From a virus: 64,000 nucleotides of DNA. Where the stretch lies: the IMG/VR virus record IMGVR_UViG_3300027747_002969, positions 1 to 64,000 of that record; one strand, written 5' to 3'. The translations under genes and the position numbers were made by a program. Position 1 is the stretch's first letter. Each line of letters begins with the position of its first letter. Under the pieces are notes generated by a model. That model saw nothing but the letters and a program-made list of their open reading frames with translations, made no database searches and was not told the DNA's origin. This document shows, in pieces, positions 8,064 to 40,190 of the stretch.

Positions 8064-9773
8064 ATGAATACCAACAAGCGAGTGCTGCTGACCAACAGCA
8101 GCAACACCGTACCAAAGGACTCTACCACTGTACCAGCAGATCTTGGCCAGATCGCCACGGCAGTTATGCTGTTGCGTCGGCAGCAGTTTGATGGCCTATC
8201 AATGCAACAGCATGCAGATGCCATCATAGCAGGTAAACGCAGTGACACACTCTCTTATTCAGAGTTTGCACAACGTTACAGCAGCAGTGCAGAAGATCTA
8301 GAACATGCTGTTGGTTTTGCTAGATATTTTGGCCTTACTGTGATTGAAAGCAGTGCCGCTGCTGCCATGGTAAAGGTCCGCGGTACGGTGAAACAATTAA
8401 ATACAGCATTTCAAACACAATTGTTGACCATAGAATCCAACGGCAAGACCTGGATGGGCTATGATGGCATCTTGACTATCCCCGAATCACTTTATCAGGT
8501 GGTTGAATATGTCATCGGACTCAACAATCCAGCAACCATGCGGCATCTCTTGACCAAACCAAAACAACCAACTGCCGCAGTGTCTGCATCTGCTGGCCTT
8601 GCAAGTTTGACTCCAATTCAAGTAGCTGCTGCATATAATTTTCCAGCCAGCAGTGGCTACGGCCAATGCATAGGTCTGATCGAATACGGTGGAGGCTATA
8701 CTGCTCAAAATATAACCAGCAGTTTTTCGGCCATAGGCCTGTCAAATCCACAGGTGGTTTCTATTCCTGTTGACACAGGCACAAATGACCCATCAGATGC
8801 TGACAGTTCTGGTGAGGTCATGCTGGATATTTTCATTGCAGGAGCAGTGGTTCCACATGCAAAGATTGCAGTGTACTTTGGTGCAGGGGCAGGTAATCCA
8901 CTGCCAGGTCCCAACTGGTATGACCCCATTAACACAGCTATACACGACCGTGTTAATGCACCCTGTGTGCTCAGCATCAGTTGGGGAGAATCAGAAGCGG
9001 CCTTTGGCCGTGTCAACATGCAGGCCATGGACATGGTGTTGTCACAGGCTGCGTTATTGGGCATTACAGTATGCGCAGCATCAGGCGACAGCGGTTCAAC
9101 ATGGGATGGTCTAGGTGTTGAAGTCCTATATCCGGCATCTAGCCCCTATGTACTGTCATGCGGTGGAACTTCATTGTTGTTGAATGGCTCGGCCATAGCC
9201 AGTGAAGTGGTTTGGAACCAATCACGCGCTCAAGCAGGTGCTACTGGTGGAGGAATCAGCATTTATGAATCCAAACCTCCATATCAAACTGGTTTGACCT
9301 ACAAACTGTATCCCAGCAATACTGTGACTAGCCTAGCAACACGCGGTGTCCCAGATGTGGCTGGTAATGCAGACCCGTTCAGCGGCTATAGTTTTTACTA
9401 CAGCAACAGAAATCTAGCAGCATCACAAGTGGGAGGTACCAGTGCTGTGGCACCATTATGGGCTGGTTTGATCGCAAGATTAGTCTGCTTAACTGGCAAA
9501 AACCTAGGACTGGTCAACACACTGCTCTACAGTTCTCCTGCGGTGTTTAACGATGTCATCAGTGGCCAAAATGTCTATACTCCCAGCAGTGTCACCACAG
9601 GTTACAGTGCCACTACTGGTTGGGATGCCTGCACCGGCCTTGGCAGTCCAAATGGCACTAAGATTCTGCTGTTGATCAGGAAAGGTCCCGTGTGGCCCAA
9701 GAACAATTATGGTTTCCGTCCCAGCAGTGGCGCAGTTTGGCCTCGTACCAACACAGGTGTTAGACAAGTCTAG
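8064..9773 (+). CDS. sedolisin (S53) serine-carboxyl peptidase with pro-domain
   Basis: The 569-aa product has an N-terminal prokumamolisin-type activation region (about residues 25-165) and a complete S53 catalytic domain. The catalytic residues can be placed: E251 and D255 (ExxxD), D342 in AASGDSG for the oxyanion hole, and S460 in GGTSAVAP. SISWGESE and the C-terminal calcium-site segment with GWDACTGLGSPNG are also present. Sedolisins cleave proteins at acidic pH after self-removal of the pro-domain. No signal peptide is visible. A GAGGT ribosome-binding site precedes the ATG and the gene starts 1 nt after the collagen-like gene, so it is probably made with the adhesins. It may mature the fibres or act on host surface proteins. 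Confidence 0.88.
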   Translation: MNTNKRVLLTNSSNTVPKDSTTVPADLGQIATAVMLLRRQQFDGLSMQQHADAIIAGKRSDTLSYSEFAQRYSSSAEDLEHAVGFARYFGLTVIESSAAAAMVKVRGTVKQLNTAFQTQLLTIESNGKTWMGYDGILTIPESLYQVVEYVIGLNNPATMRHLLTKPKQPTAAVSASAGLASLTPIQVAAAYNFPASSGYGQCIGLIEYGGGYTAQNITSSFSAIGLSNPQVVSIPVDTGTNDPSDADSSGEVMLDIFIAGAVVPHAKIAVYFGAGAGNPLPGPNWYDPINTAIHDRVNAPCVLSISWGESEAAFGRVNMQAMDMVLSQAALLGITVCAASGDSGSTWDGLGVEVLYPASSPYVLSCGGTSLLLNGSAIASEVVWNQSRAQAGATGGGISIYESKPPYQTGLTYKLYPSNTVTSLATRGVPDVAGNADPFSGYSFYYSNRNLAASQVGGTSAVAPLWAGLIARLVCLTGKNLGLVNTLLYSSPAVFNDVISGQNVYTPSSVTTGYSATTGWDACTGLGSPNGTKILLLIRKGPVWPKNNYGFRPSSGAVWPRTNTGVRQV

Positions 9774-9778
9774 CAAAA

Positions 9779-9786
9779 GATAAATA
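9779..9786 (+). promoter_or_regulatory. T4-type late promoter before RyR/bilin genes
   Basis: GATAAATA ends 4 nt before ATG 9791, so the RyR-heme oxygenase-bilin reductase genes are probably expressed late. Confidence 0.65.
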
Positions 9787-9790
9787 ACAC

Positions 9791-10360
9791 ATGTTCAACC
9801 ATCCCTATATCTGTCTCAGTACCAAAGACGATCTCAGCGACGACAGCATCAAATCATGGTTTAAGTCAGTGGATGAAGCTGGGCCGTCTGGTATAATCAC
9901 TGCTACAGAACTAACAGCCAACAACAAACCTCAGAGATTTTATCGTAGAAAAATCAACGGTATGAATAGATACTGCGTAGTACTCTGCAGAGATCTTGAG
10001 GGCGAAGAAGTGCGCAATATAGCATTGGCAGTTGACAGTAGCATACCCAGCGGTGATTTTGAAATCTCATGGAGCCAACACCCCCAAAGTGATGATCGCT
10101 ATGCTGTCGTTCAGGAAGATCTGTTAAAGGCCATTGCACTAGAAGCGTCTAAACGCAATCATGGAAAATGGTTAAACAAAAAAATCAACGAAGGTTGGAG
10201 ATTTGGACAGAATTTCAACAGCAGAGGCAAAGTCAGTCCCATGTGCAGAGAATGGCATGCGTTGAATGAAAGATACCAAGCAGCCGAGTACCATAGGATG
10301 ATCAGCCTCATACAGGTGTTAGAGGAAATGAATTTGAGTTTGATGGCCAAAAAATCATAA
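9791..10360 (+). CDS. RyR-domain-like protein
   Basis: The N-terminal half is unrecognised. The C-terminal half (about residues 108-183) resembles the RyR repeat: a helix with an NHGKW segment, then EGWRFG, a conserved P and W, and a final helical stretch. RyR domains in bacteria and phages occur in proteins thought to bind nucleotide-like ligands. GATAAATA ends 4 nt before the ATG and no ribosome-binding site is present. The bilin genes follow 9 nt downstream, so co-transcription is likely. Domain assignment is moderate and the function is unknown. Confidence 0.5.
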   Translation: MFNHPYICLSTKDDLSDDSIKSWFKSVDEAGPSGIITATELTANNKPQRFYRRKINGMNRYCVVLCRDLEGEEVRNIALAVDSSIPSGDFEISWSQHPQSDDRYAVVQEDLLKAIALEASKRNHGKWLNKKINEGWRFGQNFNSRGKVSPMCREWHALNERYQAAEYHRMISLIQVLEEMNLSLMAKKS

Positions 10361-10369
10361 ACTTAGATC

Positions 10370-10903
10370 ATGAGCAATATCAATCAATCCGAACTTAGGC
10401 AATCTGTTCAAAAACTTCATAAACTGGCTGAAAACACACGATTCTCACAGTCCTTGATTACAGATGATGTCGATCAAGATATCTATCGCAACATGTGCTA
10501 CCAGATGTGGCTGATAACCGATGCAATTGAGCACAAAATTGACCTACCACCAGACCTAGAGCGTCGGTCAACATTTGTACAGGATATTGCAGAATCTCGC
10601 CAAGGTTTGGTAAGAATTTTGCCTGCCACACAGCAATATCTCAATCACATCAAGTGCACGGAACCTAGAAATCTAGCAGGTATAATCTACTGCTTTTATC
10701 TTGGTTGGCTATATGGTGGACAAATAATTGCAAAAAAACTGTCCTTGCCTAAAAACCACATGACCTTTAGCAATGCCCAGCGCAGTATCGACTGGATAAG
10801 ACAAACCCTACTGGTTGATCTTAACGAAACTGATATTGCCGAAGCACAGGCTGCATTTATTGTCATAATTGAGATCTATCAAGAACTTTATGAACTGCAT
10901 TGA
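10370..10903 (+). CDS. ho1: heme oxygenase
   Basis: The 177-aa protein matches biliverdin-producing heme oxygenases. The N-terminal helix carries the proximal heme ligand in LHKLAEN (His17), and the distal-helix signature appears as LGWLYGGQ (about residues 111-118), where most relatives have GDLSGGQ. The enzyme opens heme to biliverdin IX-alpha using ferredoxin or another reductant. It overlaps the downstream bilin reductase by 14 nt, so the two form one pathway. At 177 aa it is short compared with cyanobacterial enzymes of about 240 aa, and the GGQ signature is diverged. Assignment is good; the activity is inferred. Confidence 0.8.
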   Translation: MSNINQSELRQSVQKLHKLAENTRFSQSLITDDVDQDIYRNMCYQMWLITDAIEHKIDLPPDLERRSTFVQDIAESRQGLVRILPATQQYLNHIKCTEPRNLAGIIYCFYLGWLYGGQIIAKKLSLPKNHMTFSNAQRSIDWIRQTLLVDLNETDIAEAQAAFIVIIEIYQELYELH

Positions 10904-11522
10904 ACAGATCACAGGTATTGCACGCAGGTTGCAATATATTATAGCAGATGATTTGCTGGCCTATAGCATACCCACAGATGAATATGGCTGGGAAAATCAC
11001 AGATATGTCAGTCCAAAATTCCGTCTTGGCCATGTGGAACTGTTCCTGCAGGAAAATTTTGCTGTGGTACATGTGTGCGTTTTTCCGCATGAGACTGATC
11101 CAAGTCCCATATTTGGTTTTGATGTAATAGCAGGACGAGACAAAATCACCGGAGTATTTTTGGATCTCAGTCCTGTGCAAGAACCAGTAGTGCCTTTCAT
11201 TAAAATTGCTGTCGCCAGCAACAGAGAGCGTCCAGAATGGGGCGATATATTCAGTGACCATTGGTTAGCCTGCAGGCCCACAGCAGATGACATGACCAAA
11301 ATAGGTCTCGAGTCTGAACGGCTGTTGACTGAATATCTCAAAGCACTGGGCAAAAACGGCAATAGAGATTTGATTATTGCCAGACAGAATCGCTATTGTA
11401 CACAGCAACAGAAGAACCCACACACCAGGCGAGCTTTGGTGAAACTACTGGGAGACGCTGGGGCTGAACACTTCATGAGCACAATATTATTTCCCGAGAT
11501 ACCCACAACAGCACACAAATAA
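10890..11522 (+). CDS. ferredoxin-dependent bilin reductase (PcyX/PebS-like)
   Basis: The 210-aa product has the core signature of ferredoxin-dependent bilin reductases, PIFGFDVIAGRDKITGVFLD, in which Asp78 corresponds to the catalytic Asp of PcyA/PebS. These enzymes reduce biliverdin to phycobilins. Phage members are known: PebS in cyanophages and PcyX on uncultured marine phage contigs. No cyanobacterial photosystem or phycobilisome gene is seen in the window, which favours a PcyX-like type, but subfamily cannot be settled by eye. The ATG at 10890 overlaps the heme oxygenase gene. Confidence 0.85.
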   Translation: MNCIEQITGIARRLQYIIADDLLAYSIPTDEYGWENHRYVSPKFRLGHVELFLQENFAVVHVCVFPHETDPSPIFGFDVIAGRDKITGVFLDLSPVQEPVVPFIKIAVASNRERPEWGDIFSDHWLACRPTADDMTKIGLESERLLTEYLKALGKNGNRDLIIARQNRYCTQQQKNPHTRRALVKLLGDAGAEHFMSTILFPEIPTTAHK

Positions 11523-12120
11523 ACGGCACCTCACTCACATTTATTGCTCATTATATTCTCACAAAACAGCACAATCACACAAGATGACAGGATATCGCAG
11601 TATAGTGTCTGCGCGGGGAAGGGACGGTCGCCGTCAGGAACCCGAATAAACAGGTGCATCATCCGCCTGACCGGGAAGTATCGGCTGTCCTCGTGGTGAA
11701 AATATCTCCAGCCCGATCCCGGAATACTCAATCAAGATCAGGAATAGATTGTAAAATCATCGCCCCATGTGCTGCATGGGCTACAAATGGATCGCTCTAT
11801 CTACCATTGATAACGATCAAGAACGGCTGAGGTTGATCAGTATTCCTCTGCTGTTTTCCGCTGCTGGACTCTGTCCAGGATGTGCATGTAATGTTGGTAC
11901 CGGGCAACCGCCAACGATCGACAACGATCAAGCATGAAAACTGGTCTGTGGGGACTGCCTGTACGCAGAATTTTCTCACATACATTCTCCCTCGTTTAAA
12001 CGCGGGGGAGATATGGTCTATGGACCCAACCAACCGCAAATGTGTAGGGAAAGCAAAATTAAGCCATTGACTAGGGATAAAAACATGCTAAATTAAATGT
12101 AGTTTATAAGGACCTCTGAG
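11523..12120. other. 598-nt non-coding stretch, structured, unexplained
   Basis: No convincing gene is found between the bilin reductase and the DNA ligase. Short open frames exist on both strands but lack ribosome-binding sites and family sequence. The stretch looks more GC-rich than its surroundings and contains several inverted repeats, for example CTCCCTCG...CGCGGGGGAG at about 11986-12010. A promoter for the ligase lies at its right end. It could hold a non-coding RNA or the remains of a lost gene. Confidence 0.4.
12067..12094 (+). promoter_or_regulatory. sigma70-type promoter before DNA ligase
   Basis: TTGACT at 12067-12072 and TAAATT at 12089-12094 are separated by 16 nt, 26 nt upstream of the ligase start codon. 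Confidence 0.5.
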
Positions 12121-23341: not shown

Positions 23342-24343
23342 ATGAAAAAATGGATCTTCATCACCGGAGGATGCGGCTACATAGGCAGCCATGTAGCAGC
23401 TGAAATCAAAGACAAGACTGACTATTCGGTGCTGTTGATCGATCGACGTGCTAAAGAATTAGTACACACTACTAAATTCTGCGATATGGTAGCCGATGAG
23501 GATTTTGCCAGCAAGGTCAGCCAGGAAGCCATTCGCGAATATCGACCAGAAACTGTGATACATCTGGCTGCCAACAGCACGATTGGTTCCAGTATGACCA
23601 ATCCTGCTGGCACCTGGGAAAACAACGTGACCAAAATGCAGCAGTTGCTGTCATGCTGTGTGCAGAATCAAATTCGCAATGTAATTTTTGCCAGCAGCAG
23701 TTCGGTTTATGCAGATCAACATGTGGCCATTGATGAATCGCATGCATTGTCCCCCTACAGTCCATATGCTACTACAAAGATGGTTGGCGAAATGATGCTG
23801 AGAGATTGGTACGGGGCGCATGGTATACGCAGCCTAAGCCTGCGTTTTTTCAACGTAGCAGGAGCACATACCAAATACGATCTTGGAGAGTTGCAGGGCA
23901 GCAGCCATTTGATGGCCAAGATTATGGAAAGTGTAGTAGATGGCCGTGATTTCACTGTATGGGGCAGGGACTGGCCTACTCCGGACAAGACTGCCATACG
24001 TGACTATACGCATGTCTTAGACATTACCGATGCAGTCTTATTGGCAATAAAATGGCTGCCAAACAATCACGGCGCGCATGTGATGAATCTTGGCGGTGGC
24101 CAAGGTCGCAGTGTACAGCAAATGATCAACACTACCGAACTGTTGTTGAGCAAACAACTGCCATATCGATACGGCAATCGTTTGGATGGAGATAGTGCCA
24201 TGAGATTTTCCAACAATGCTTGTGCATTAAAACTACTGGGTTGGCAACCCAGTCGTGGATTAAATGACATCATTTTGGACAGTTTCAAATGGTACAACAG
24301 TGACATGTATCGTTCATTAACGCAAGCAAAAATTGTCTATTGA
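23342..24343 (+). CDS. galE: UDP-glucose 4-epimerase (GalE-like)
   Basis: The 333-aa short-chain dehydrogenase has the NAD-binding GGCGYIGSH motif at the N-terminus, the SSSSVY segment, the YSPYATTK catalytic Tyr-Lys pair, and RFFNVAGA and AIRDYTHVLDI, all typical of GalE. It interconverts UDP-glucose and UDP-galactose using NAD. It could supply sugars for the phage glycosyltransferases elsewhere in the window or remodel host surface glycans. It begins 2 nt after the dsbA-like gene. Confidence 0.85.
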   Translation: MKKWIFITGGCGYIGSHVAAEIKDKTDYSVLLIDRRAKELVHTTKFCDMVADEDFASKVSQEAIREYRPETVIHLAANSTIGSSMTNPAGTWENNVTKMQQLLSCCVQNQIRNVIFASSSSVYADQHVAIDESHALSPYSPYATTKMVGEMMLRDWYGAHGIRSLSLRFFNVAGAHTKYDLGELQGSSHLMAKIMESVVDGRDFTVWGRDWPTPDKTAIRDYTHVLDITDAVLLAIKWLPNNHGAHVMNLGGGQGRSVQQMINTTELLLSKQLPYRYGNRLDGDSAMRFSNNACALKLLGWQPSRGLNDIILDSFKWYNSDMYRSLTQAKIVY

Positions 24344-24387
24344 ATGTCTCTGATAGAGAGATTATAACTGAGTTAGGAGGTACAGAC

Positions 24388-26082
24388 ATGTATGTTGATG
24401 CATTCTATGAACGTGATAAAAATCAAATATTAGTAGTAGAGCGCAACCGCGCTGGCAAACGCATCTACAACCAATTTCCTACCAAATACTGTGTGTATTG
24501 GCCCAGCGCTCGTGGCAAGTTTAAGAATATCTACGGTACTGCCTGTGAAAAGTATCAAACTACTAAACTGAAAGAATTTACACGAGAAATTAATATCATT
24601 CCCAAGTTGACTCAGCATGAATCGGATATCAATCCAGTGTTCCGCTGCTTCTATGACAACTACAAGGGTGTACCGGGACCAGACCTGCATGTGGCTTTTT
24701 TTGACATTGAAACTGACTTTGATCCTTTACGTGGGTTTTCCAGCACAGATGATGCATTTTCGCCAATAACTGCCATCTCAATCTATCTCAAATGGTTGGA
24801 AAGAAACTTTACCATGGTGATCAAACCCAAAGACATGGATCAAACCACTGCTGAAGAAATTGTAGCCAAATTTGCCGATACAGTTCTGTGTGAAAGCGAA
24901 AAAGAACTGCTAGAACTGTTTCTGGGCATCATAGATGATGCTGATGTGCTGAGTGGTTGGAATTCCGAAGGCTATGATATTCCCTATATACACAATCGCA
25001 TAGTACAGGTCTTGGGCAAGGAAGAAACACGCAAGTTGTGTCTCTGGGGAAAATATCCCAAGCGGCGTGAATACGAAGCCTATGGACGTCAGACTGTGAC
25101 GTATGATCTAGTTGGTAGGATACACCTTGATTATCTACAACTGTATCGCAAAAATACCTATCATGAAATGCACAGTTATCGTTTGGACTTTGTGGGAGAA
25201 TATGAAGTTGGTGATAAGAAAACACATTACGAAGGCAGTTTAGATAGTCTCTACAACAACGATTTTGAAAGATTCATAGAATATAATCGCCAAGACGTCA
25301 TGTTGTTGGTAAAGATCGATGCTAAAAACAAGTTCATAGAACTCAGCAACAATCTAGCACATGAAAACTGTGTGCTGCTGCCAACCACTATGGGTGCAGT
25401 GGGGTTGATCGACCAGGCTATTGTTAACGAATCTTGGGATCTTGGATTTGTTGTACCAAATCGCAAGAATGATCGCGCGAAACACCGCAGTGACGACGAC
25501 GATGAGGATGACGATTCGGTCGACATATCTGGTGTGGTTGGGGCATATGTGGCTGATCCAAAACAGGGCATGCATGATTGGATTGGCGGTGTTGACATCA
25601 ACAGTCTCTATCCCAGTGCCATTCGTGCACTGAATATGAGTCCGGAGACTATCGTTGGCCATATCCGCCCAGAAAGCACCGACAAGCTCATCACCAAACG
25701 CATGAAGTCTGAAAAAAAATCATTTGCTGATGCGTGGAACAGCATGTTTGGCACATTGGAATATAACCAAGTGATTAATCAAGATCTCACACCAATAACA
25801 GTGGATTTTGAAGACGGTAACAGTCAAACTGTGTCAGCCAGTGAACTGTATGATTTGGTTTTCAAAAGTGGTAAGAATCTCATACTCAGTGCCAATGGTA
25901 CTATATTTACCGGTGACAAGCAGGGCATTATACCCGGTCTGTTGAGTCGTTGGTACAGCGAGAGAAAAGAACTGCAGGCTGAGATGCGACGATATGGGGA
26001 TCTCTGTGCCAACGGCATAGAATTGTCAGCTGATCTAGCAGATGAGGTTAGACAGATCCTTGCTGCAAACCAGACAACCTAA
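24388..26082 (+). CDS. family B DNA polymerase, N-terminal piece (gp43 part A)
   Basis: 564 aa from the ATG at 24388, chosen because TAGGAGG lies 10 nt upstream. The exonuclease motifs are intact: FFDIETD (Exo I, D106 and E108), GWNSEGYDIPY (Exo II) and YNRQDVMLL (Exo III). Motif A of the palm, DINSLYPS (D403), is present. The protein stops in the fingers-proximal region (ending LAANQTT), before motif B and motif C, which are encoded by the next two genes. It cannot polymerise alone. The break resembles the two-piece gp43A/gp43B of some Aeromonas T4-like phages as I recall them. Confidence 0.93.
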   Translation: MYVDAFYERDKNQILVVERNRAGKRIYNQFPTKYCVYWPSARGKFKNIYGTACEKYQTTKLKEFTREINIIPKLTQHESDINPVFRCFYDNYKGVPGPDLHVAFFDIETDFDPLRGFSSTDDAFSPITAISIYLKWLERNFTMVIKPKDMDQTTAEEIVAKFADTVLCESEKELLELFLGIIDDADVLSGWNSEGYDIPYIHNRIVQVLGKEETRKLCLWGKYPKRREYEAYGRQTVTYDLVGRIHLDYLQLYRKNTYHEMHSYRLDFVGEYEVGDKKTHYEGSLDSLYNNDFERFIEYNRQDVMLLVKIDAKNKFIELSNNLAHENCVLLPTTMGAVGLIDQAIVNESWDLGFVVPNRKNDRAKHRSDDDDEDDDSVDISGVVGAYVADPKQGMHDWIGGVDINSLYPSAIRALNMSPETIVGHIRPESTDKLITKRMKSEKKSFADAWNSMFGTLEYNQVINQDLTPITVDFEDGNSQTVSASELYDLVFKSGKNLILSANGTIFTGDKQGIIPGLLSRWYSERKELQAEMRRYGDLCANGIELSADLADEVRQILAANQTT

Positions 26083-26112
26083 GTTTGATCATTGCATCGT
26101 TTTGGTTGGCTG

Positions 26113-26142
26113 TTGACATATCATCAACAGGTTTGGTATATT
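26113..26142 (+). promoter_or_regulatory. sigma70-type promoter between polymerase pieces
   Basis: TTGACA (26113-26118) and TATATT (26137-26142), spacing 18 nt. It lies between the stop of the first polymerase piece and the start of the second, so the second piece has its own transcript start. Confidence 0.5.
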
Positions 26143-26166
26143 ATGATGAACAATATGGAGCTCCAA

Positions 26167-27131
26167 ATGGAAACAATTGACAGCTTGGTAAAGAAACGGG
26201 ATGCTCGGGGTATAGCAGCATTTATCGAATCCAATGGATTGGCTCTAAACGAGTCCAATCGCATGACAGCCGTATCGAGTCAAGCCAAAACTCGCTGCAA
26301 GCGCCAACAAGACTTCTATGATCAGCGCCAGCTTATCAAGAAAATCTTGCTTAATTCGTAGATCTGCGACGCTGATTGGCAACAATCAGATGACAACTGC
26401 TCTAATTGCTGGAAACTCCCTGACAGGGACAATCAGCAGCCAAGCGTTGGAAACAACGAAGGTTCAACGACTAGATCGAAAGATCGTAGATCCAAGTGGA
26501 TCGAAATGGGCAGCATCCCACGTGGATGGTGATATAGTCTCCTCTGCATGGTAACATGCAGCAGTGCTGTTAAAGCACGGGGCAGCATTAACGACGCTGT
26601 CTGAAGATCAAGGTGTATGGAGCTATTGGTAATCCCAGCTCAAGGTTCGCAGACAACCGAGTGGCACAGAGCACCACTTTGACTGGTCGTTGCATTGTCA
26701 AACACATGGCAGGAAAGATTAATGAAACGATTGCAGGCGATTACAATCACACAGGGGTATCAATAATTTACGGGGATACCGATTCGGTTGACGCCGAATC
26801 AATTATTAGAACCAATTTAGGTGATAAAACTGTTGAAGACTTGTTTCTGAGTGGTAGTCTTTTTTGGCAAGAGGGCAACAAGGAATATTCAAGAAACGAT
26901 GCAGTCCAAGTTGTCAGCTATCTTCCTGAAGAAAACAAGACAACTCTGTCCAAATATAATTATGTCTATCGTCATAAGGTACGGAAAAAGAAATATAGGA
27001 TTACCACGTCTAGTGGCAAATCAGTTATTGTTACTGAAGACCATTCAGTTATGGTGTTGATTGATGGACAACTGGTAGAAAAAAAGCCAACTCAGTTGAC
27101 AAAAAATGATAAGGTTATTACCTTGTCATAA
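26167..27131 (+). CDS. family B DNA polymerase, middle piece (fingers to motif C) fused to N-intein; interrupted by a group I intron
   Basis: The coding sequence is join(26167..26359, 26614..27131), 236 aa after RNA splicing. The ATG at 26167 is preceded by TGGAG at 6 nt. Exon 1 encodes the fingers helix ending KKILLNS, and exon 2 continues LYGAIGNPSSRF, restoring motif B (KxxxNSLYG). Exon 2 then reaches motif C, YGDTD, where the intein begins at Ser (codon 26784-26786). The remaining 115 residues are the N-terminal half of an intein with block A start SVDAESII and block B VTEDHSVMV, ending at a stop. The product must be spliced in trans to the 27287 protein. All joins are deduced from sequence. 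Confidence 0.9.
26360..26613 (+). ncRNA. group I intron in polymerase motif B
   Basis: The 254-nt intervening sequence has group I core elements. A Q-like AATTGCTGGAAA is at about 26403. The R element is GTTCAACGACTAGA (26462-26475) and the S element GATATAGTC (26531-26539); GACTA pairs with TAGTC to form P7. The 5' exon end TCGT pairs with the internal guide GCGA (26366-26369), giving the expected U-G wobble at the splice site, and the intron ends with G at 26613. Splicing restores the reading frame (TCG TTG TAT, Ser-Leu-Tyr). No homing endonuclease is encoded inside. Confidence 0.92.
26784..27131 (+). other. N-terminal half of split intein (coding segment)
   Basis: 115 codons starting with the catalytic Ser1 immediately after YGDTD. 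Block A (SVDAESIIRTNLGDKTVEDL) and block B with TxxH (VTEDHSVMV) are present. No homing endonuclease domain is present, and the frame ends at a normal stop codon. Confidence 0.88.
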
Positions 27132-27286
27132 ACAATTGTTCAACTATGCTGCGCCTGGTGTGTTGGGTTTGGTTAACGGATTCAACACACTAAGATCAAG
27201 GTCGCCACAGAAAGATGCTTTTAAGTGAAATAGTTTGCTGGAGAGAATTTGAAAATTCTCAAACAAATCATAGAGGAAGGTTTTAA
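27132..27286. other. 155-nt gap between intein halves
   Basis: The gap contains no gene. TGTGTTG at about 27159 pairs with CAACACA at about 27183, forming a possible hairpin, and a strong GAGGAAGG ribosome-binding site ends it. There is no sign of a homing endonuclease remnant. Confidence 0.5.
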
Positions 27287-28270
27287 ATGGTGAACCACCT
27301 AATAGAGACGATTGAATCAATTGAAGAATTGGGAGAATTTGAAGATGAGTATGTCTATGACATAGGTATTGATCCAACTCACCCCTACTTCTTTGCAAAT
27401 GATGTTTTGGTTCACAACTCCGCTTATTTCTCGGCCTATCCGGTGATGAAAGATTCACCAGATTTCCAAGACTTTGAATGGACCAAGGAAGCAGTGGTAG
27501 AACTCTATGACAAGATTGGAGACATAACCAATGCCAGTTTTCCTGATTTTATGCGTGCAGCTTTCAATTGTCAGCCCAGCAGTGGAGCCATTATACGTGC
27601 AGCGCGAGAACTCTGCGCACTGAAAGGTCTATTCATTACTAAAAAACGCTATGCTGTTTTGATCTATGACAAAGAAGGCAAGAGGAAAGATTCCAATGGC
27701 AAGCCAGGTGAGATCAAAGCCATGGGTCTTGATCTCAAACGCAGCGATACTCCCAAGATCGTGCAGGATTTTCTCAGTGACATCTTGGTTGATGTATTAA
27801 CTGGCAGTACAGAACGGGACATTCAACAGAAAATTCTAGAATTCCGCAAGGAATTTCGCAGTTGGCCTGGTTGGCTCAAGGGTTCTCCCAAGCGTGCCAA
27901 CAAGATTACACACTATCAAAACATCATCAACAGTCAGGGTCCGCGAGGTACCATTCCCGGACATGTGCTGGCCAGCATCAACTGGAATCGATTGAAAAAG
28001 ATCTATGGCGATCATTATAGCCAGTCAATACAAGATGGTGCCAAAGTCATAGTGTGTAAATTGCGATCCAATCCCAGTGGCTTAACATCCGTAGCATATC
28101 CTGTTGATGAATTGACACTGCCGCAATGGTTCAAAGATCTACCATTTGATGAAGAAGCAATGGAGTCAGCATTGATTGACAAGAAGTGTCAAAACCTTCT
28201 GGGAGTGCTGTCATGGGACCTCGAGTCAAATCGCGAGAACAGCAGTTTCAGCGATCTATTCAGTTTTTAA
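27287..28270 (+). CDS. C-intein fused to family B DNA polymerase C-terminal piece (palm/thumb)
   Basis: 327 aa. Residues 1-44 are the C-terminal half of a split intein: block F (EYVYDIGIDPTHPYFFAN) and block G ending VLVHN, followed by the +1 Ser. Residues 45-327 continue the polymerase from SAYFSAYP, with TKKRYAVLIYD (the KKRY palm motif), KAMGLDLKRSDTPK and the thumb. The C-terminus SFSDLFSF resembles the clamp-binding tail of T4 gp43. GAGGAAGG precedes the ATG. Trans-splicing with the middle piece rebuilds motif C as YGDTDS. Confidence 0.93.
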   Translation: MVNHLIETIESIEELGEFEDEYVYDIGIDPTHPYFFANDVLVHNSAYFSAYPVMKDSPDFQDFEWTKEAVVELYDKIGDITNASFPDFMRAAFNCQPSSGAIIRAARELCALKGLFITKKRYAVLIYDKEGKRKDSNGKPGEIKAMGLDLKRSDTPKIVQDFLSDILVDVLTGSTERDIQQKILEFRKEFRSWPGWLKGSPKRANKITHYQNIINSQGPRGTIPGHVLASINWNRLKKIYGDHYSQSIQDGAKVIVCKLRSNPSGLTSVAYPVDELTLPQWFKDLPFDEEAMESALIDKKCQNLLGVLSWDLESNRENSSFSDLFSF

Positions 28271-32196: not shown

Positions 32197-32226
32197 CTAA
32201 ACTGTATGATAGGAGAACTCTCGCAC

Positions 32227-32850
32227 ATGTTACCTGCTGTATTCAAAGACCTAGACCGCGGTCTGTTGTGGAAATTGGTCATAATCCAATCACTGCTGAT
32301 CACCATCAGCAACTATTTGGTACACTATAAATTCGCCATACTGGGATGGCCCTTGGCCTGGAGCATATGGTGCACACCACTGTTCATGGTGATCACTGAT
32401 CTGGTCACACGCCTAGTGGGCAAACCACTTGCACGAGCTGTGCTGCTGGCCACTCTGGTGCCGGGCATGCTGGGCACTGCGGTTGGTGCTTGGCTCTATG
32501 GCAGCGGCCTAGTTGATGGCACTCGCCTCACGGTAGCCAGTGGCATCTGTTATCTGCTGCCCATGCTGTTGGATGTCTGGATCTTTGCCTGGCTGCGCCA
32601 TCGTATATCTGCGTGGTATGTAGCACCTGCTGTCAGCGGTGTTGTGACCACCATATTCATGACATATCTGTTTTGGGGTGTGGCATTTGCAGGCGGCAGC
32701 GATCCCTATCTCAGCAGTCATTGGTATGTGTTGGCCACCAGTCAGCTGATCATCAAGAACCTGCTGAATCTCCTGCTGCTGCTGCCGCTGTATGGTGCAC
32801 TGCTGACTTGGCTCACACGCAAATCAGGTGCTAGACATGCAGGAGTATAA
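32227..32850 (+). CDS. yhhQ: YhhQ-family queuosine precursor transporter
   Basis: 207 aa from ATG 32227 (AGGAG lies 11 nt upstream; an in-frame ATG at 32206 is also possible). About six hydrophobic segments are present. The sequence follows E. coli YhhQ closely in pattern: ITISNYLVHYKFAILGWPLAW, FMVITDLVTRLVGKPLAR, LVPGMLGT, and a C-terminal LLLLLPLYGALLTWL. YhhQ imports preQ0/preQ1 across the inner membrane. In this phage it would raise the supply of 7-deazaguanine precursor for DNA modification. It overlaps the next gene by 14 nt in a three-gene operon. Confidence 0.85.
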   Translation: MLPAVFKDLDRGLLWKLVIIQSLLITISNYLVHYKFAILGWPLAWSIWCTPLFMVITDLVTRLVGKPLARAVLLATLVPGMLGTAVGAWLYGSGLVDGTRLTVASGICYLLPMLLDVWIFAWLRHRISAWYVAPAVSGVVTTIFMTYLFWGVAFAGGSDPYLSSHWYVLATSQLIIKNLLNLLLLLPLYGALLTWLTRKSGARHAGV

Positions 32851-33628
32851 TCGATTGTGGGATACCTACAGCAAAAACTGGGATCTGCTGAAAGCACCCA
32901 TGCGGCCCACCACTGCTGTGATCCGTGTGCTGCAGCAGCAGATAGGCGAAGGTCATGTGCTGCAGTTGGGCTGCACTCCTGAGATACATGCGGCGTTTGA
33001 TCACATCACTGCTGTGGACAGAGATCCCAACATGATTGCCACTGTGTGGCCAGGCAACACTGCCACCAAACAGGTGATCAATCAAGACTGGATGCACATG
33101 ATTTGGCCCCACAACACATTTACAGGCATAGTCAGTGACTGTGGTGTGGTCATGCTTGGTACCTTGCAACGACAACAAGAGTTTCTGTCTCGCTGCTGGG
33201 ATTGGCTTGCACCTGGGGGTACCTATGCGCAACGCTACTTTGAGCGCCCCATGGTCAACATCACCTTGGAAGAACTACTGGCTGACATCAGCGGACCAGC
33301 CAAGATCAACTTTCATGCTTTCAAATGGAAGATGGGCATGTATCTGGCAGGTCAACACGGTGCGGCCACTGCCAGTGTGCAGATATTAGATCTGTGGCGT
33401 GAGATCAGCGGCGATCGAGAGGCAGTGTTGGATCGCACAGGTTGGTCTGCTGAAGCGGTGCAGACAGTGGATTTTTATCAGACCAGTGGGCAGGTAGTGA
33501 CATTTGCCAATCGTGAGGAATATGCCAGCACTATACCTGCAGGTGCAGTTGATGTGGAATGGCTCTATACAACAGATTATGATTTTGCAGAACACTGTCC
33601 TATCATGCGCTGGAGAAAGCCGCTGTGA
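32837..33628 (+). CDS. class I SAM methyltransferase-like protein
   Basis: 263 aa from ATG 32837. The Rossmann-type start GHVLQLGCTPE (motif I), the acidic ITAVDRDPNM (motif II) and the WLAPGGTYAQRYF segment fit class I SAM-dependent methyltransferases. Motif I is diverged (LGCTPE rather than GxGxG), so it may bind SAM differently. It is translationally coupled to yhhQ and to the ligase. A role in modifying a 7-deazaguanine intermediate or its carboxylate is possible but not shown. Confidence 0.6.
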   Translation: MQEYNRLWDTYSKNWDLLKAPMRPTTAVIRVLQQQIGEGHVLQLGCTPEIHAAFDHITAVDRDPNMIATVWPGNTATKQVINQDWMHMIWPHNTFTGIVSDCGVVMLGTLQRQQEFLSRCWDWLAPGGTYAQRYFERPMVNITLEELLADISGPAKINFHAFKWKMGMYLAGQHGAATASVQILDLWREISGDREAVLDRTGWSAEAVQTVDFYQTSGQVVTFANREEYASTIPAGAVDVEWLYTTDYDFAEHCPIMRWRKPL

Positions 33629-34965
33629 ACCTAGAAGGTGTGACATGGCCCAAGATGTATACTGGGCCTAACCTAGTGCTTATGGCGCTGCTGGCCGAGT
33701 TGGACCGCACAATGTGGTTAGATCCTGAAGTCATAGCTGCTGAGCAGTTCAAACAACTGCGTTTGATAATTGCTCATCACACGGCATACAGCCCGCAGTT
33801 TGCTGCTAGAATGCTGGCAGCTGGATTGACAGCTGCTGACATCACTGACGCGGCCAGCCTTCGCCGCCTGCCGCCCTTGCGACGCCTAGACATACAGCGT
33901 GCAGGCGATGGTTTTTACAGTAAACACATACCGCAGAGCCATGGACAACCGGGTGAGACTCGCACCAGTGGTAGCACAGGTGAACCTGTGAAGATACGCA
34001 AGACACAGATTGATGCACTGTTTTGGACTGCACATGCTATAAGAGATCATCTCTGGGCCCGTCGCGATTTTCGCCACCGGTTGCTGAGCATACGTGCTGA
34101 CATCTGGAAGTACGGCGAGTCGCCCAACTGGGGACAGCCCATAGCAGACATCTGGCAGACTGGTCGCAGTATAGGCATGCCGGCTACCTATGATGTACGA
34201 GAACAGTTGCGGATCATCAAAGAATTCCAGCCTGGCATACTGCTGATCTATCCCAACAATCTCAGCATTATCTTGGACGAAATGGCAGCAGATGGCAGCG
34301 ACTTTGGATTTATCAAGCATGTCAAGACCATCGGTGAGACTGTGCACCAGTGGCAGCGTGACAAGACTCGTGCTGTTCTTGGAGTAAAGATAGAAGACAA
34401 CTACAGCAGCAATGAAATGGGCTGCATGGCCATGCAGTGTCCAGACACCGACAACTACCATGTCATGACAGAAACTGTGATAGTAGAGATCATCAATGAT
34501 CAGGATCAGCCCTGTGTACCAGGTGAAGTGGGACGTTTGGTGGTCACTGACCTACACAACCATGCCAGCCCATTGATACGCTATGACATAGGCGACTGGG
34601 CAGAAGCGGGTGAACCCTGCAGATGTGGACGAGGGTTGCCAACTATCAAGCGATTTGTTGGCAGAGAACACAGCATACTTTCACGGCCCGACGGCACTCG
34701 CATCTGGCCCATATTCTATGGCGCCAAAATGAATGACATTGCACCGGTGAGACAGTACCAATTCATACAGCACACACTGACCGGCATGGAATTTCGCTGC
34801 TTTACAGAACAGCCGCTGACTGCAGCGCAGCGTGAAGGACTCATAGCATTAGTACAAGAGGCTCTGGGGTGGCCCTATGATTTAGATCTCATAGAATATC
34901 GCCAGCCTCTGCCAACCACAGCTCGTGGAAAATTTCAAGAATATATCAACCGAATGGCAACATGA
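33625..34965 (+). CDS. PaaK/CapK-family adenylate-forming ligase
   Basis: 446 aa, GTG start overlapping the previous stop (GTGA). The P-loop TSGSTGEPVKI, the YSSNEMG motif and RYDIGDWAEAGEPCRCGRGLP with GRE are the signature of phenylacetate-CoA ligase-like AMP-forming enzymes. Such enzymes activate a carboxylate as acyl-AMP and pass it to CoA, an amine or another acceptor. Co-operonic with a 7-deazaguanine precursor transporter and close to QueE, whose product carries a carboxylate, it is a candidate for activating that group. The substrate is inferred only. Confidence 0.8.
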   Translation: MNLEGVTWPKMYTGPNLVLMALLAELDRTMWLDPEVIAAEQFKQLRLIIAHHTAYSPQFAARMLAAGLTAADITDAASLRRLPPLRRLDIQRAGDGFYSKHIPQSHGQPGETRTSGSTGEPVKIRKTQIDALFWTAHAIRDHLWARRDFRHRLLSIRADIWKYGESPNWGQPIADIWQTGRSIGMPATYDVREQLRIIKEFQPGILLIYPNNLSIILDEMAADGSDFGFIKHVKTIGETVHQWQRDKTRAVLGVKIEDNYSSNEMGCMAMQCPDTDNYHVMTETVIVEIINDQDQPCVPGEVGRLVVTDLHNHASPLIRYDIGDWAEAGEPCRCGRGLPTIKRFVGREHSILSRPDGTRIWPIFYGAKMNDIAPVRQYQFIQHTLTGMEFRCFTEQPLTAAQREGLIALVQEALGWPYDLDLIEYRQPLPTTARGKFQEYINRMAT

Positions 34966-35106
34966 AAGTGATTTCCTGCATAACAGTTTGGCCATCGCCC
35001 AGTTGCGTAGTTGGACCAAAATAACCTCTGTTATGTGAAAATCTGACATCCTTGTTGTGATGCGTCTGCATCTAACGCGGACATAACTTGATCTTTCAAT
35101 GATCCA

Positions 35107-35121
35107 GCATCATACTGATGC
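35107..35121. promoter_or_regulatory. palindrome upstream of dpdA
   Basis: GCATCA-TAC-TGATGC overlaps a possible promoter (TTGATC at about 35090, CATACT at 35111). It could be an operator controlling the modification genes. Confidence 0.35.
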
Positions 35122-35140
35122 TAGATAGGAATTATCAACT

Positions 35141-36775
35141 ATGAATCCATTTGAAAACCAGCGCGGTTTAAACAAACAAGCAGTAAACCTTGCAAAATCG
35201 CAAAAAGACTATGCAGTATTTCTACCGTCAATTTCGGCGATCTATGCCAAGATCGTCAGTATGCCGGAATACAAGATACGTGAAAGGCTGCCCGATGGAC
35301 TCAATAATGATAGATTAGACTTAAATTTCCTCAACAAAGACAATAGTTTATTCTACTATCCTGCTGCACTTTATAGTGCAGGCCATGCATATCTAGACGT
35401 TAATGAAAGCAATGTTTACGAAAGCATGGTGCAAAAGCGAGATCGTTCAAGAACGGTGATAATAGGTGACAGTGGCGGATTCCAGATTGCCACAGGCGTA
35501 TTGAAATGGCCATGGACACCAAAGAAAAATCAAGATGATTTAGAATGGGCACGTGACAAGGACAAACTGCGCATGTCGATTTTAAGATGGTTAGAAGCCA
35601 CTGCAGATTATTCGTCTGTGCTCGACGTGCCAACTTACGGTCTTGTTAAATTTGGATTTGATCCTGTCACAGGAGAAAGTCTGCATCCCGGAATGAAGAC
35701 CTTTCGCGACTGTCTCAATGTCAGCCTTGAAAATTATGATTTCTTTATACGAAACAGGGTTGAAGGTGCTACCAAGTTTCTAAACGTGTTGCAGGGTCGC
35801 AACCAAGAAGAAGGCGATGTTTGGTGGGATGCTGTGAAAGACCTGCCGTTTGAAACCTGGGCTTTTTCTAACGTTCAGGCATCAAACTTTTCCATCAACC
35901 TGCGGCGTTTGATCATCATGCGTGATGGCAAGTATTTAGATGGACGCGATTGGCTACACTATCTCGGCAATGGTAAGATCAAAGCCGGTTGTGCATTGAC
36001 CACGCTGCAGCGTGCCATTAGACAGCATATCAATTCCAACATTACACTGAGTTTTGATGCAGCATCGCCGTTTGTGATGGTGGCTAAAGGACAGATGTAT
36101 CATGGGTATGAACTCAGCCACAACAGCATGCGATTCAAAGGTGGCAGCATAGTCGATGACAAACTTTTAAAAAACAGTCAACTGCTGTTGAACGACTGGA
36201 TTTCTGCTAATGATCACAAGGGTTTTATAATTCCCAGTGCCATTGGTTCTCGCTGCACTGTTGGAGATATTTGTGTGCGAGGCTACGAGGATCTTGCCTA
36301 TAAGAAGGTAGCATGGACCAAAAAGGAATTGCAAACTGATGCATATCTCAACAGTCAAGAAGGTCGTGCCGGAGACAAGTTCAAATGGAGTAATGATTAC
36401 AAAGAGTATCTATCACATAGTCGGGATCACGGCGGGCTGTTTGATTTCAGCAGCAGCAAATTTGAACTAGATCATGAGAAATATCAAGTGAAATGGCCCA
36501 GCAGCATGGATGGTTTTTCCTATATCATTGCTATGAACCACAATGTTGAGTTGCATATACGTGCAATTCAAGAAGCCTGTGCAGCACAGGATCTACCTCT
36601 GGCAGCAGCAACAGCACGAGTCACTCCAGATCTGCTGGAATTTAAAGATCTCTGCGGCGAAATATTGACCAGCCAACGACCTATGGATATTATCAACAAG
36701 CATGAGAAACTGCTGCGCAACATTACTGGCATGGATGCGGATAACCAAGTCAACATGGAAGTTGGAGACTTTTGA
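35141..36775 (+). CDS. dpdA: DpdA-type DNA guanine transglycosylase
   Basis: 544 aa, longer than bacterial tRNA-guanine transglycosylases (about 375 aa). It keeps the two key aspartates: D110 in GDSGGFQ, the TGT acid/base site, and D306 in LSFDAASPF, matching the nucleophile region. A YLGNGKIKAG loop lies between, and a downstream KGQMYHG segment parallels TGT. TGT-family enzymes called DpdA exchange guanine in DNA for a 7-deazaguanine derivative. FolE, QueD, QueE and YhhQ nearby support this. The DpdA subfamily cannot be assigned by eye. Confidence 0.88.
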   Translation: MNPFENQRGLNKQAVNLAKSQKDYAVFLPSISAIYAKIVSMPEYKIRERLPDGLNNDRLDLNFLNKDNSLFYYPAALYSAGHAYLDVNESNVYESMVQKRDRSRTVIIGDSGGFQIATGVLKWPWTPKKNQDDLEWARDKDKLRMSILRWLEATADYSSVLDVPTYGLVKFGFDPVTGESLHPGMKTFRDCLNVSLENYDFFIRNRVEGATKFLNVLQGRNQEEGDVWWDAVKDLPFETWAFSNVQASNFSINLRRLIIMRDGKYLDGRDWLHYLGNGKIKAGCALTTLQRAIRQHINSNITLSFDAASPFVMVAKGQMYHGYELSHNSMRFKGGSIVDDKLLKNSQLLLNDWISANDHKGFIIPSAIGSRCTVGDICVRGYEDLAYKKVAWTKKELQTDAYLNSQEGRAGDKFKWSNDYKEYLSHSRDHGGLFDFSSSKFELDHEKYQVKWPSSMDGFSYIIAMNHNVELHIRAIQEACAAQDLPLAAATARVTPDLLEFKDLCGEILTSQRPMDIINKHEKLLRNITGMDADNQVNMEVGDF

Positions 36776-37302
36776 TGAAACGTGACTATAAAGATGGCAT
36801 CAAGAATGATGTGGTGTTTTTTACCGGAACAGAAGTGGAGCACACGCCTGCATGGGGTCTCAAAACACTGTTTGTAGTTGGTGTTCAACCCATTGAACGT
36901 GTTGCTGCACTGTTTGATCAGCACCGGTGTGAACACATCTATCTTGGTGCCAATCAAAGTTTTGACACAGAAGGTTGGCTAGGTAACATCACTAACAGTG
37001 ATGCCTGGGATAATATGATCAACAGCGTGTTGACAATTGGTTGTTTGACCACGTTGGATTTTGATCTACGGTACGTGGACTGGGTCTGCGAAGGTGGGTA
37101 TGCTGACAATGACCTCTTTATTCCGCAGATATCAGTCAAAATACCTTATCTAAACCAACTGGGTTATAATGCCACGTTGAAAATAGATGATCGTGGTTTT
37201 CGTGCAACCAACCCCGGCGTGTGGTGCCATAGCCTTCATGATCTCACTTCTCGCAGGGAGTTTACAGCTTGGAACCAATACAGTAAGGATCAACCAATAT
37301 GA
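36775..37302 (+). CDS. unknown protein coupled to DpdA
   Basis: 175 aa from ATG 36775, overlapping the dpdA stop and preceded by GGAG. Segments FFTGTEVEHTP, TLFVVGV, HIYLGANQSF and CEGGYADNDLF are distinctive but I do not recognise a family with known function. Tight coupling to dpdA suggests a part in synthesis, insertion or further modification of the 7-deazaguanine base. Confidence 0.7.
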   Translation: MKRDYKDGIKNDVVFFTGTEVEHTPAWGLKTLFVVGVQPIERVAALFDQHRCEHIYLGANQSFDTEGWLGNITNSDAWDNMINSVLTIGCLTTLDFDLRYVDWVCEGGYADNDLFIPQISVKIPYLNQLGYNATLKIDDRGFRATNPGVWCHSLHDLTSRREFTAWNQYSKDQPI

Positions 37303-37733
37303 ATCAACAGACCATAGACTATTTGCAGGATTACAGAAAAAAGACCGCAGATTTAGCCCTGCTAAAATCACAAATACATGTTTTAGAACAGGACCTGATG
37401 AACAAAAATCATCAGGTACAGGATATGTTATATGAAATCGACAGCATGCGCAAGATCATTACTTTGATGATAGACAATGACTGGGATCCAGTAGAGACCA
37501 AACTGCGCAGCGAACCGTCTGAGAGACAAAAAAATCACTGGGGATATGCCAGCGACTACAGTGAACTTTCTCATCTTGCTCATAAGAGCATTAACAACAA
37601 AAATATATACTACAATCATCAAGGGTGTCACTACAGTGGTGCAACCGGGGCAATCGGAGCGCTGGGGTCTAGCAGTGTGCCCAATCCCAGTTATCAAAGT
37701 ACAACCATTATTGCAAAACAAATTACACCTTAA
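37299..37733 (+). CDS. coiled-coil hypothetical protein
   Basis: 144 aa. Residues 5-65 form a predicted coiled coil; the C-terminal half has glycine- and serine-rich sequence (GATGAIGALGSSS). It overlaps the upstream gene by 4 nt. Function unknown. Confidence 0.6.
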   Translation: MNQQTIDYLQDYRKKTADLALLKSQIHVLEQDLMNKNHQVQDMLYEIDSMRKIITLMIDNDWDPVETKLRSEPSERQKNHWGYASDYSELSHLAHKSINNKNIYYNHQGCHYSGATGAIGALGSSSVPNPSYQSTTIIAKQITP

Positions 37734-37788
37734 TTGTGTTGTTAAAAACTCCCAGTCTAAACTCTAGTGCAATTGCAAGGACAATATC

Positions 37789-38460
37789 ATGACTGCTACC
37801 AGCATTAAAATACGCAATCGAATTCAAACCAATGGGGGTAAGTTTTTCTGCAACGACAATATCTCTGAATACATGGAACCCGGAGAATTTGACCTGTTGA
37901 TGACAGAAGTCGAGTCTAAGATGCAGGGTGTGTTGGAAAGCCTGGTAATTGACACTGAGAACGATCACAACACACGAGAAACTGCACACAGAGTAGCCAA
38001 GATGTTTTGTACGGAGGTGTTTTCTGGCAGATATCTTCCTCAACCCAAGATCACAGCATTTCCCAACGCCACAGCATATGATGAAGTCTATGTGACTGGA
38101 CCAATTTCTGTAAGATCGACATGTGCTCACCACCTACAGAGCATCAAGGGCCAGTGTTATATTGGTGTGTTCCCAGGCAAGAACGTTATTGGTCTTAGCA
38201 AGTTTAATCGCATGGTAGATTGGATTGCCAGCCGTCCACAGATTCAGGAAGAAATGACCATACAGATTGCCGATCTTGTGGAACGTGAAACTGAAGCCAA
38301 AGGTGTTGCTGTGCTGCTGCAGGCAGAGCACGGATGCATGACCATGCGAGGAGTTAAAGAGCATGATTCTGACATGACCACCAGTGTGATGCGCGGAGTG
38401 TTTCGAGATACTCCGCACATCAAAAAGGAGTTTTTTGACATACTTGCTAGGATGAAATAG
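37789..38460 (+). CDS. folE: GTP cyclohydrolase I
   Basis: 223 aa with the family signatures: STCAHHLQSIKGQCYIGVFPG, IGLSKFNRMVDWIASRPQIQ and HGCMTMRGV, which include the zinc-binding Cys, His, Cys. FolE converts GTP to 7,8-dihydroneopterin triphosphate, the first step to queuosine-type 7-deazaguanines. In this window its product would feed QueD and QueE. Confidence 0.93.
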   Translation: MTATSIKIRNRIQTNGGKFFCNDNISEYMEPGEFDLLMTEVESKMQGVLESLVIDTENDHNTRETAHRVAKMFCTEVFSGRYLPQPKITAFPNATAYDEVYVTGPISVRSTCAHHLQSIKGQCYIGVFPGKNVIGLSKFNRMVDWIASRPQIQEEMTIQIADLVERETEAKGVAVLLQAEHGCMTMRGVKEHDSDMTTSVMRGVFRDTPHIKKEFFDILARMK

Positions 38461-38511
38461 TGAACTGGCATGAAATGGGTATCACATGTGACAATAGGAA
38501 AGGTAATATAA

Positions 38512-39033
38512 ATGGTTAATCAACCAATCAGTTATAAATTTGTGAGCACCAAAGAATACATAGATGAATTTCCATGTGCCTATCGACAGTATTTGGCAGA
38601 TGACAAACCGGGGAATATTCCTGGTTGTAATAAGATACATGGTTACAGTTTCAGTATAAAATTTTATTTTGGTACCAATTCACTAGATGCACGAAATTGG
38701 GTAGCTGATTATGGGGCACTGCGACCTCTCAAAGATTTTCTGAAAGATCTGTTTGATCATACCTTGTTGGTCAGTGAAACAGACCCTCATTTGGATTGGT
38801 ATCAAGAAGCCATGCGCAGAGGAATCGCTAAACTTACCATTCTCCCCAAATTGGGATGTGAAGGACTGGCAGATATGCTTTACAAATATGTCAACGCTGT
38901 GTTCATACCCGAGCAATGGGGAAGTAACGAATCTGAAAGGATTTGGTGTTACAAAGTGTCTGTTCGAGAAACTCAATCAAACCTAGCATTTCGTGTTGGT
39001 CATAGAGAATGGGACGACGATTTATTTTCTTGA
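38512..39033 (+). CDS. queD: 6-carboxy-tetrahydropterin synthase (QueD-like), altered zinc site
   Basis: 173 aa, longer than E. coli QueD (120 aa). The catalytic Cys and first His of the CxxxHGH motif appear as CNKIHGY, VADYGALR corresponds to the DFxxL element, FDHTLLV and CEGLADMLY follow, and the C-terminal RET contains the catalytic Glu. Two of three zinc-ligand His positions are Tyr (FPCAYRQ and HGY). The HGY form is, as I recall, shared by other phage members; the FPCAY change is odd. QueD makes 6-carboxy-tetrahydropterin from dihydroneopterin triphosphate. Confidence 0.8.
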   Translation: MVNQPISYKFVSTKEYIDEFPCAYRQYLADDKPGNIPGCNKIHGYSFSIKFYFGTNSLDARNWVADYGALRPLKDFLKDLFDHTLLVSETDPHLDWYQEAMRRGIAKLTILPKLGCEGLADMLYKYVNAVFIPEQWGSNESERIWCYKVSVRETQSNLAFRVGHREWDDDLFS

Positions 39034-39152
39034 ACATGTTTCACGGTGTTGACGTTTGTAGTTTCCAAACAAGTTGACCACAGTGAACGATGTAGAATTT
39101 CATTGATAGCTGCGGTCGAAAATACAGTTAACCAACATAGGAAAAATGAAAA

Positions 39153-39344
39153 ATGTCTGATAGCAAGTTAGTAGAATCTGATCAAATGGCCACCGTTTAC
39201 CAAGGTCGAGTGGCCAAAGAAGACGGCGAACTGGTGTTGGTATTTCCAGCCAGCATGCTGTTGGACCTTGGTTGGCAAGAAGGTGACAGTGTTGTCTGGG
39301 ATATTCGACCAGACGCAGTGGTAGTCAAAAAGGTCAATGACTGA
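39153..39344 (+). CDS. AbrB/MazE-like DNA-binding protein
   Basis: 63 aa. The segment GELVLVFPASMLLDLGWQEG followed by DSVVWDI has the swapped-hairpin AbrB/SpoVT/MazE pattern. Such small proteins act as transcription regulators or antitoxins; no toxin gene is visible next to it. It lies between queD and queE and may regulate the modification genes. Confidence 0.65.
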   Translation: MSDSKLVESDQMATVYQGRVAKEDGELVLVFPASMLLDLGWQEGDSVVWDIRPDAVVVKKVND

Positions 39345-39400
39345 ATAGGCCAAAATCGATATCTAATGTAGTGTGAATCAGCAACAGGATGAGACATACC

Positions 39401-39922: not shown

Positions 39923-40172
39923 TGACAGCAAACCATTTCTACTGCTATGGGATCATCTCAGCAGTGAAGACATGCAAGAACGAATAGACTGGTTGAGGAA
40001 AAATCTCACAGCAGGAATTGATTGGGGATTTTGTGCGAATCCCAAGATTTGCGTTCTGAAGACCAGTAATGCTAACCTGCTCTATCGCCTGCGTTGGTTT
40101 GAACCCGGACAACAGAAAGAAATTGATTGGCATCCTACATTTGAAAATAGTGACATTAATCGAAATGAGTGA
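39915..40172 (+). CDS. hypothetical protein
   Basis: 85 aa, no recognised motif. The stop codon lies within copy 3 of the dispersed CGGTAGTTCAC repeat (reverse orientation). Confidence 0.5.
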   Translation: MNNDSKPFLLLWDHLSSEDMQERIDWLRKNLTAGIDWGFCANPKICVLKTSNANLLYRLRWFEPGQQKEIDWHPTFENSDINRNE

Positions 40173-40179
40173 ACTACCG
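40169..40179 (-). repeat. dispersed intergenic repeat, copy 3 (reverse)
   Basis: GTGAACTACCG is the reverse complement of the core found at 20513, 30633 and 58920; flanks extend the match to GCGCGGTAGTTCAC. Confidence 0.5.
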
Positions 40180-40190
40180 CGCAAAAACTT

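Follow-up and report, generated by a model that had tools for sequence, protein, structure and literature searches.

A conserved three-gene cassette encoding an RyR-domain protein, a heme oxygenase (HO) and a PcyA-like bilin reductase (FDBR) was identified in a stretch of phage DNA (hereafter the window; positions 1-64000 of an IMG/VR virus record, linear and 84,333 bases long, whose remaining 20 kb were also taken into the analysis). We interpret it, with a probability of roughly 0.6, as a late operon on a fragment of a jumbo phage genome, whose products would convert heme to phycocyanobilin in a non-cyanobacterial host. In the proposed scheme, T4-type late transcription would drive the three genes as one operon; HO, in whose distal pocket the usual Tyr/Arg/Asp water network is replaced, would open host heme to yield biliverdin IXa, CO and Fe2+; and FDBR, supplied with electrons by host ferredoxin, would reduce biliverdin to phycocyanobilin. 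The least certain part of the scheme is that the bilin itself would matter, for example for a host phytochrome or another bilin protein, the release of iron being a side benefit.

The presence of an HO and FDBR pair alone on a phage of a heterotroph is not new and has been published already (PMC11480375). New are two features, the constant association of RyR, HO and PcyA in one cassette behind a promoter-like element and a coordinated replacement of the HO distal network that is tied to the FDBR type; no description of either was found in the open-licence literature searched. HO-FDBR cassettes are known from phages of non-photosynthetic hosts; the conserved third gene and the conserved late-promoter-like element provide concrete handles on their timing and partner.

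Table 1. Features of the RyR-HO-FDBR cassette, in window coordinates
Feature	Position	Strand	Basis or remark
Late-promoter-like element GATAAATA	9779..9786	+	4 nt ahead of RyR ATG
RyR-domain protein, 189 aa	9791..10360	+	PF02026 (E 2.3e-8); family alignment; PDB profile matches to RyR repeats
Heme oxygenase (HO), 177 aa	10370..10903	+	PF01126 (E 2.9e-16); alignments; model and fold match
FDBR, PcyA-like, 210 aa	10890..11522	+	PF05996 (E 3.6e-21); PDB phmmer; alignments; tree

Composition and Conservation of the Cassette

All three proteins score above the Pfam cut-offs, and the HO and FDBR genes overlap by 14 nt; thus the overlapping heme-to-phycobilin gene pair reported in the preliminary description is borne out. 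The TTG codon at 10869, given in the list of open reading frames as the FDBR start, is less likely than the ATG at 10890, since relatives begin at an ATG matching the latter. In nearly all of the 80 retrieved loci, FDBR is immediately preceded by HO. Querying with the RyR protein produced ten viral loci, every one of them with HO and FDBR directly downstream, and when the loci from this search and those derived from FDBR were pooled, RyR-HO-FDBR formed one unit in 10/10 distinct lineages with the RyR protein; the HO protein, used as a query, returned near-identical copies only. The RyR gene is missing from L008 and L011, two members of the window's own FDBR clade A, and from clade B (both described below). 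The RyR-like gene, noted earlier as preceding the pair, is thus confirmed as a PF02026 protein, but that account was incomplete, as the cassette includes this gene as a third, conserved component. Downstream, about 600 bases (window 11523-12120) without a convincing ORF separate FDBR from a DNA ligase gene; in this interval, Rfam produced no match and terminator predictions did not exceed chance, and scans of the cassette region for terminators and sigma-70 promoters remained at chance level.

The T4-type late promoter ascribed to the cassette beforehand holds as a late-promoter-like element. A T4-type late unit is expected to have a TATAAATA-like element upstream, and GATAAATA is of this kind. 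It is enriched in the window (7 occurrences observed vs 1.95 expected). Of the 17 ATAAATA occurrences in the 84-kb record, 9 have an ATG shortly downstream, whereas this holds for 10% of compositionally identical control words (p 1.6e-5). Moreover, TAAATA, mostly as NATAAATA, is found 4-5 nt upstream of the RyR ATG in all ten distinct lineages. The conserved spacing and the association with ATG support late transcription of the cassette, with a predicted start at or adjoining the RyR start codon. Across the 84-kb record, NATAAATA elements stand some 4-7 nt ahead of ATG at many genes (for instance, at window positions 2791, 3687, 20478, and 52377 on the minus strand and 3714 and 9779 on the plus strand), a spacing which suggests leaderless or nearly leaderless late mRNAs.

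Bilin Reductase and the Proposed Fate of Heme

Residues Glu50, His61, and Asp78 of the window FDBR correspond to Glu76, His88, and Asp105 of Synechocystis PcyA; loss of key active-site residues, which had been named as a ground for doubting the assignment, therefore does not apply to this enzyme. The PcyX-specific Asp55 is absent and Glu occupies its column, Asp55 having been placed in the Glu76 column by counting along the 5owg sequence with an assumed eight-residue tag offset. Glu76 is PcyA-specific and required for reduction of the 18-vinyl group (PMC10151467), and the FDBR of phage CB_2, also without Asp55, was found to be a true PcyA that made phycocyanobilin (PMC11480375). Since the Glu76 triad is kept, Asp55 is absent, and CB_2 provides a precedent, the predicted product of the window FDBR should be phycocyanobilin.

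The comparison with PebS, PcyA, and PcyX suggested in the preliminary description was carried out as a maximum-likelihood tree of 68 sequences, in which long branches are flagged and the deepest order is unsure. The phage FDBRs are united with one alphaproteobacterial FDBR in a group (95/95) that is separated from PebS and from the PcyA of cyanobacteria and cyanophages. Inside this group, the window FDBR falls into clade A (93/90); clade B, also of the Glu type, is separate (99/99), and PcyX clade C, which includes Mosig (95/98), has L074 at its base. The window FDBR does not cluster with PcyX_EBK42635 and Mosig, and lies outside both the cyanophage PcyA and PebS branches and the PcyX clade. 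The single scan for bacterial relatives returned one alphaproteobacterium. In the close relatives L102, L103, and L104, Gln replaces the catalytic Glu76 and the adjoining HO has Tyr at the Asp140 position; the product of these FDBRs may differ, and product specificity may therefore not be fixed.

The earlier list of known phage cases, PebS/HO1 and PcyX, omits the HO and PcyA of CB_2 (2024) and the cultured pelagiphage Mosig. CB_2 is a freshwater phage with a proposed non-photosynthetic host, whose HO made biliverdin (Nat Commun 2024, PMC11480375); by its published description, it resembles the phage studied here in combining an HO and an FDBR without Asp55 (vHemO and vPcyA) on a large freshwater phage, but it carries AlaS too, whereas the window record has none. 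An AlaS partner was found neither in the window record nor in any Glu76-type record tested, and is present in three of four PcyX-type records. This enzyme, 5-aminolevulinate synthase, was observed in the PcyX-type phage records of L068, L069, and L048 (G017, G019, and G020). Pelagibacter phage Mosig (MT647606), a T4-like phage of a heterotroph, likewise has an overlapping HO-FDBR pair, but its FDBR is 31% identical to that of the window and has the PcyX-type Asp at the Glu76 column, its HO retains Tyr/Arg/Asp, unlike the window HO, and the pair is preceded by 2OG-Fe(II) oxygenases and ferrochelatase rather than by RyR. Phage-borne bilin enzymes are also found in cyanophages (PcyA of P-SSM4 and Sf-FP1, PebS/HO1 of P-SSM2), but on separate tree branches; in P-SSM2, HO and FDBR are not adjacent and HO retains GDLSGGQ. 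Similar to the window, the alphaproteobacterial cluster of Falsiroseomonas (L098) has an HO without the distal Asp adjacent to a Glu76-type FDBR, but it is chromosomal and lies near a putative phytochrome gene, its FDBR is 37% identical to that of the window, and its HO is of another type. One more alphaproteobacterial HO/PcyA cluster is reportedly present in Bradyrhizobium ORS278.

Two divergent phage clades have both conserved the Glu on which 18-vinyl reduction depends, and this conservation suggests that the bilin itself matters. Conceivable, though on balance unlikely, is that the pair degrades heme for the supply of iron or heme, with FDBR merely clearing biliverdin and so pulling the reaction; the iron released at a late stage would then supply late metalloproteins, among them possibly the tail proteins of the virion. 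The late-promoter-like element conforms to this explanation, an iron role is discussed for such genes in PMC11480375, and no gene for a bilin-binding phytochrome was recognised in the phage records, but clearance of biliverdin would not need the regiospecific Glu, and no gene for the uptake or storage of iron was recognised next to the pair. The phytochrome PHY family had no match in 23 records and the Fer2 ferredoxin family none in 22, the window's own record and related Glu76-type records included; the host would therefore have to provide both the electrons and any protein accepting the bilin, although, the record being a fragment, phytochrome and ferredoxin genes may lie elsewhere in the genome.

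Heme Oxygenase with an Altered Distal Pocket

The AlphaFold model of the window HO (pLDDT 96.8) has the all-helical HO fold, with TM scores of about 0.79-0.85 to HO structures, and heme oxygenases account for all of its 50 top-ranking matches in the PDB. The proximal heme ligand His17 (equivalent to His25) is invariant in 36 sequences, Glu21, Tyr107, and Gly116/117 are also kept, and the distal-helix Gly-Gly and Tyr134 are invariant in the HO alignments. The canonical distal network is absent from the protein: the positions of human Tyr58, Arg136, and Asp140 are taken by Thr50, Phe109, and Trp113, and the His132 position is likewise changed. The altered GWLYGGQ helix that had been pointed out (residues 112-118) is indeed there, but it is only one visible part of this wider, coordinated change.

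The state of the distal network is tied to the FDBR type. The Tyr58/Arg136/Asp140 positions read Y/R/D in 32 of 32 distinct HOs paired with a PcyX-type FDBR; the distal Asp is lost in 24 of the 27 phage HOs paired with a Glu76-type FDBR vs 0/32 of those paired with the PcyX type, counts that share ancestry and do not represent independent events. In the window group the three positions are occupied by T or A, by F, H, or N, and by W, respectively; L009, L010, and L012 have Y/H/N, and clade B has F/N/I or L. The distal Asp is retained in L011, L013, and L074, whose FDBR partners are of the Glu type. The distal position varies naturally among Asp, Asn, Trp, Tyr, and Ile/Leu, with concerted changes at the Arg136 and Tyr58 positions, and these variants constitute a ready-made set for studying oxygen activation by heme oxygenases without the textbook Asp. 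Low dN/dS values in HO pairs lacking this Asp (0.14-0.28 in the informative pairs, and 0.49 in a single pair so close that it shows few changes) indicate that such genes are maintained under purifying selection in the relatives; the estimates come from other lineages, and in the pairs that involve the window HO dS is at or close to saturation.

A doubtful alternative is that the window protein has abandoned oxygenase chemistry, acting as a heme-binding or peroxidase-like protein or cleaving heme at another position, and that FDBR uses a host or unusual bilin. All three distal positions are replaced, and the D140A substitution turns human HO-1 into a peroxidase (PMC5623701); with the Arg136, Tyr58, and His132 positions changed in addition, the activity of the window HO is therefore not assured. 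The strict pairing with FDBR, the invariant proximal His, and the purifying selection speak against loss of the activity. Moreover, soybean HO-1, which lacks both Arg136 and Asp140, is active and uses another network (PMC7948506), and the Falsiroseomonas HO adjoining a PcyA-type FDBR reads GAGLGGQ, again without the distal Asp. Given the plant precedent, the Falsiroseomonas protein, and the purifying selection, we expect with moderate confidence that the window HO is an active enzyme with a rebuilt pocket.

RyR-Domain Protein

The RyR protein consists of an N-terminal alpha/beta part and a C-terminal RyR (R12) domain at approximately residues 102-183. A fold search with its model (pTM 0.50) gave no match with E < 0.001; the RyR domain alone was recognisable, and the N-terminal part had weak and mixed matches only. 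Phage RyR (R12) proteins were described to bind and sequester, or to cleave, the 2'/3'cADPR immune signals (2026 preprint, PMC13232231). In the residue mapping taken from the same work, H124, W127, and E166 of the window protein occupy the RyDEP positions H75, W78, and D117, and S149 replaces H100. An ADP-ribose-type nucleotide would be the most likely ligand, in line with the other RyR proteins of phages. The window protein shares the Pfam domain and these His/Trp/acidic ligand positions with RyDEP; it differs from RyDEP in the extra N-terminal part, in the Ser at the H100 position, and in its fixed partnership with HO and FDBR behind a late-type promoter element.

A ligand of this kind could point to a counter-defence island, in which RyR would sponge or cleave cyclic ADP-ribose signals of Thoeris, and HO and FDBR would be co-regulated with it for an unrelated or a linked anti-defence reason. 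We consider this improbable: the retained ligand positions and the described activity of phage RyR proteins agree with it, but the element here is of the late type, whereas RyDEP activity is reported in early to mid infection, H100 is replaced, and PADLOC gave no match. In addition, we know of no link between bilins and defence. Equally speculative would be a module in which the RyR nucleotide binder, the HO with its new pocket, and PcyA couple the production of bilin or iron to nucleotide sensing or virion assembly.

Phage Setting and Host

Among isolates, the record's DNA polymerase is closest to those of jumbo phages infecting Sinorhizobium (469 kb, 51%) and Agrobacterium (490 kb, 49%), followed by Pseudomonas PA5oct-like phages (46%), and the same cassette occurs in related records of up to 518,643 and 452,799 bases (the L009 and L108 records, 450-520 kb). 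The polymerase kinship and the size of these relatives indicate that the 84-kb record is probably a fragment of a jumbo phage genome, so that gene absences in 84 kb tell little about the whole phage. The phage itself appears to be large and of freshwater type, with a host that is probably non-cyanobacterial and probably proteobacterial. As for other host clues, no tRNAs were detected in the 64-kb window, and pmoC, a marker of methane-oxidizing hosts, had no match in 28 records, a result that is uninformative, because the control also matched nowhere.

The photosystem D1/D2 genes (psbA/psbD) had no family match in the 84-kb record and 11 related records, one of them of 518 kb, and no photosynthesis genes were revealed when the window's larger ORFs were scanned against Pfam. 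The initial remark that photosystem genes are not visible thus extends to the relatives, but for this phage it covers a linear fragment of the genome. Although HO and FDBR do occur in cyanophages, an ordinary cyanophage-type pair serving phycobilisomes is very improbable, as the tree and the residues put FDBR outside cyanophage PcyA and PebS, psbA and psbD are missing from the 12 records, and the kin of the DNA polymerase are phages of proteobacteria.

Several other features of the window were observed. The DNA polymerase gene (24340-28270) is split by a group I intron (26350-26561, RF00028) and also by matches to intein splicing domains in two separate ORFs (26613-27131 and 27287-28270). Directly preceding the RyR gene is a gene (8064-9773) whose 569-aa product has a pro-kumamolisin activation domain, and before which genes for collagen-like repeat proteins are located. 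Finally, the region 32206-41159 encodes GTP cyclohydrolase I, a homologue of 6-pyruvoyl-tetrahydropterin synthase, a radical SAM protein, and a Vut_1 transporter, which together may make up a pathway of the 7-deazaguanine (queuosine) type, with DNA modification as a conceivable purpose.
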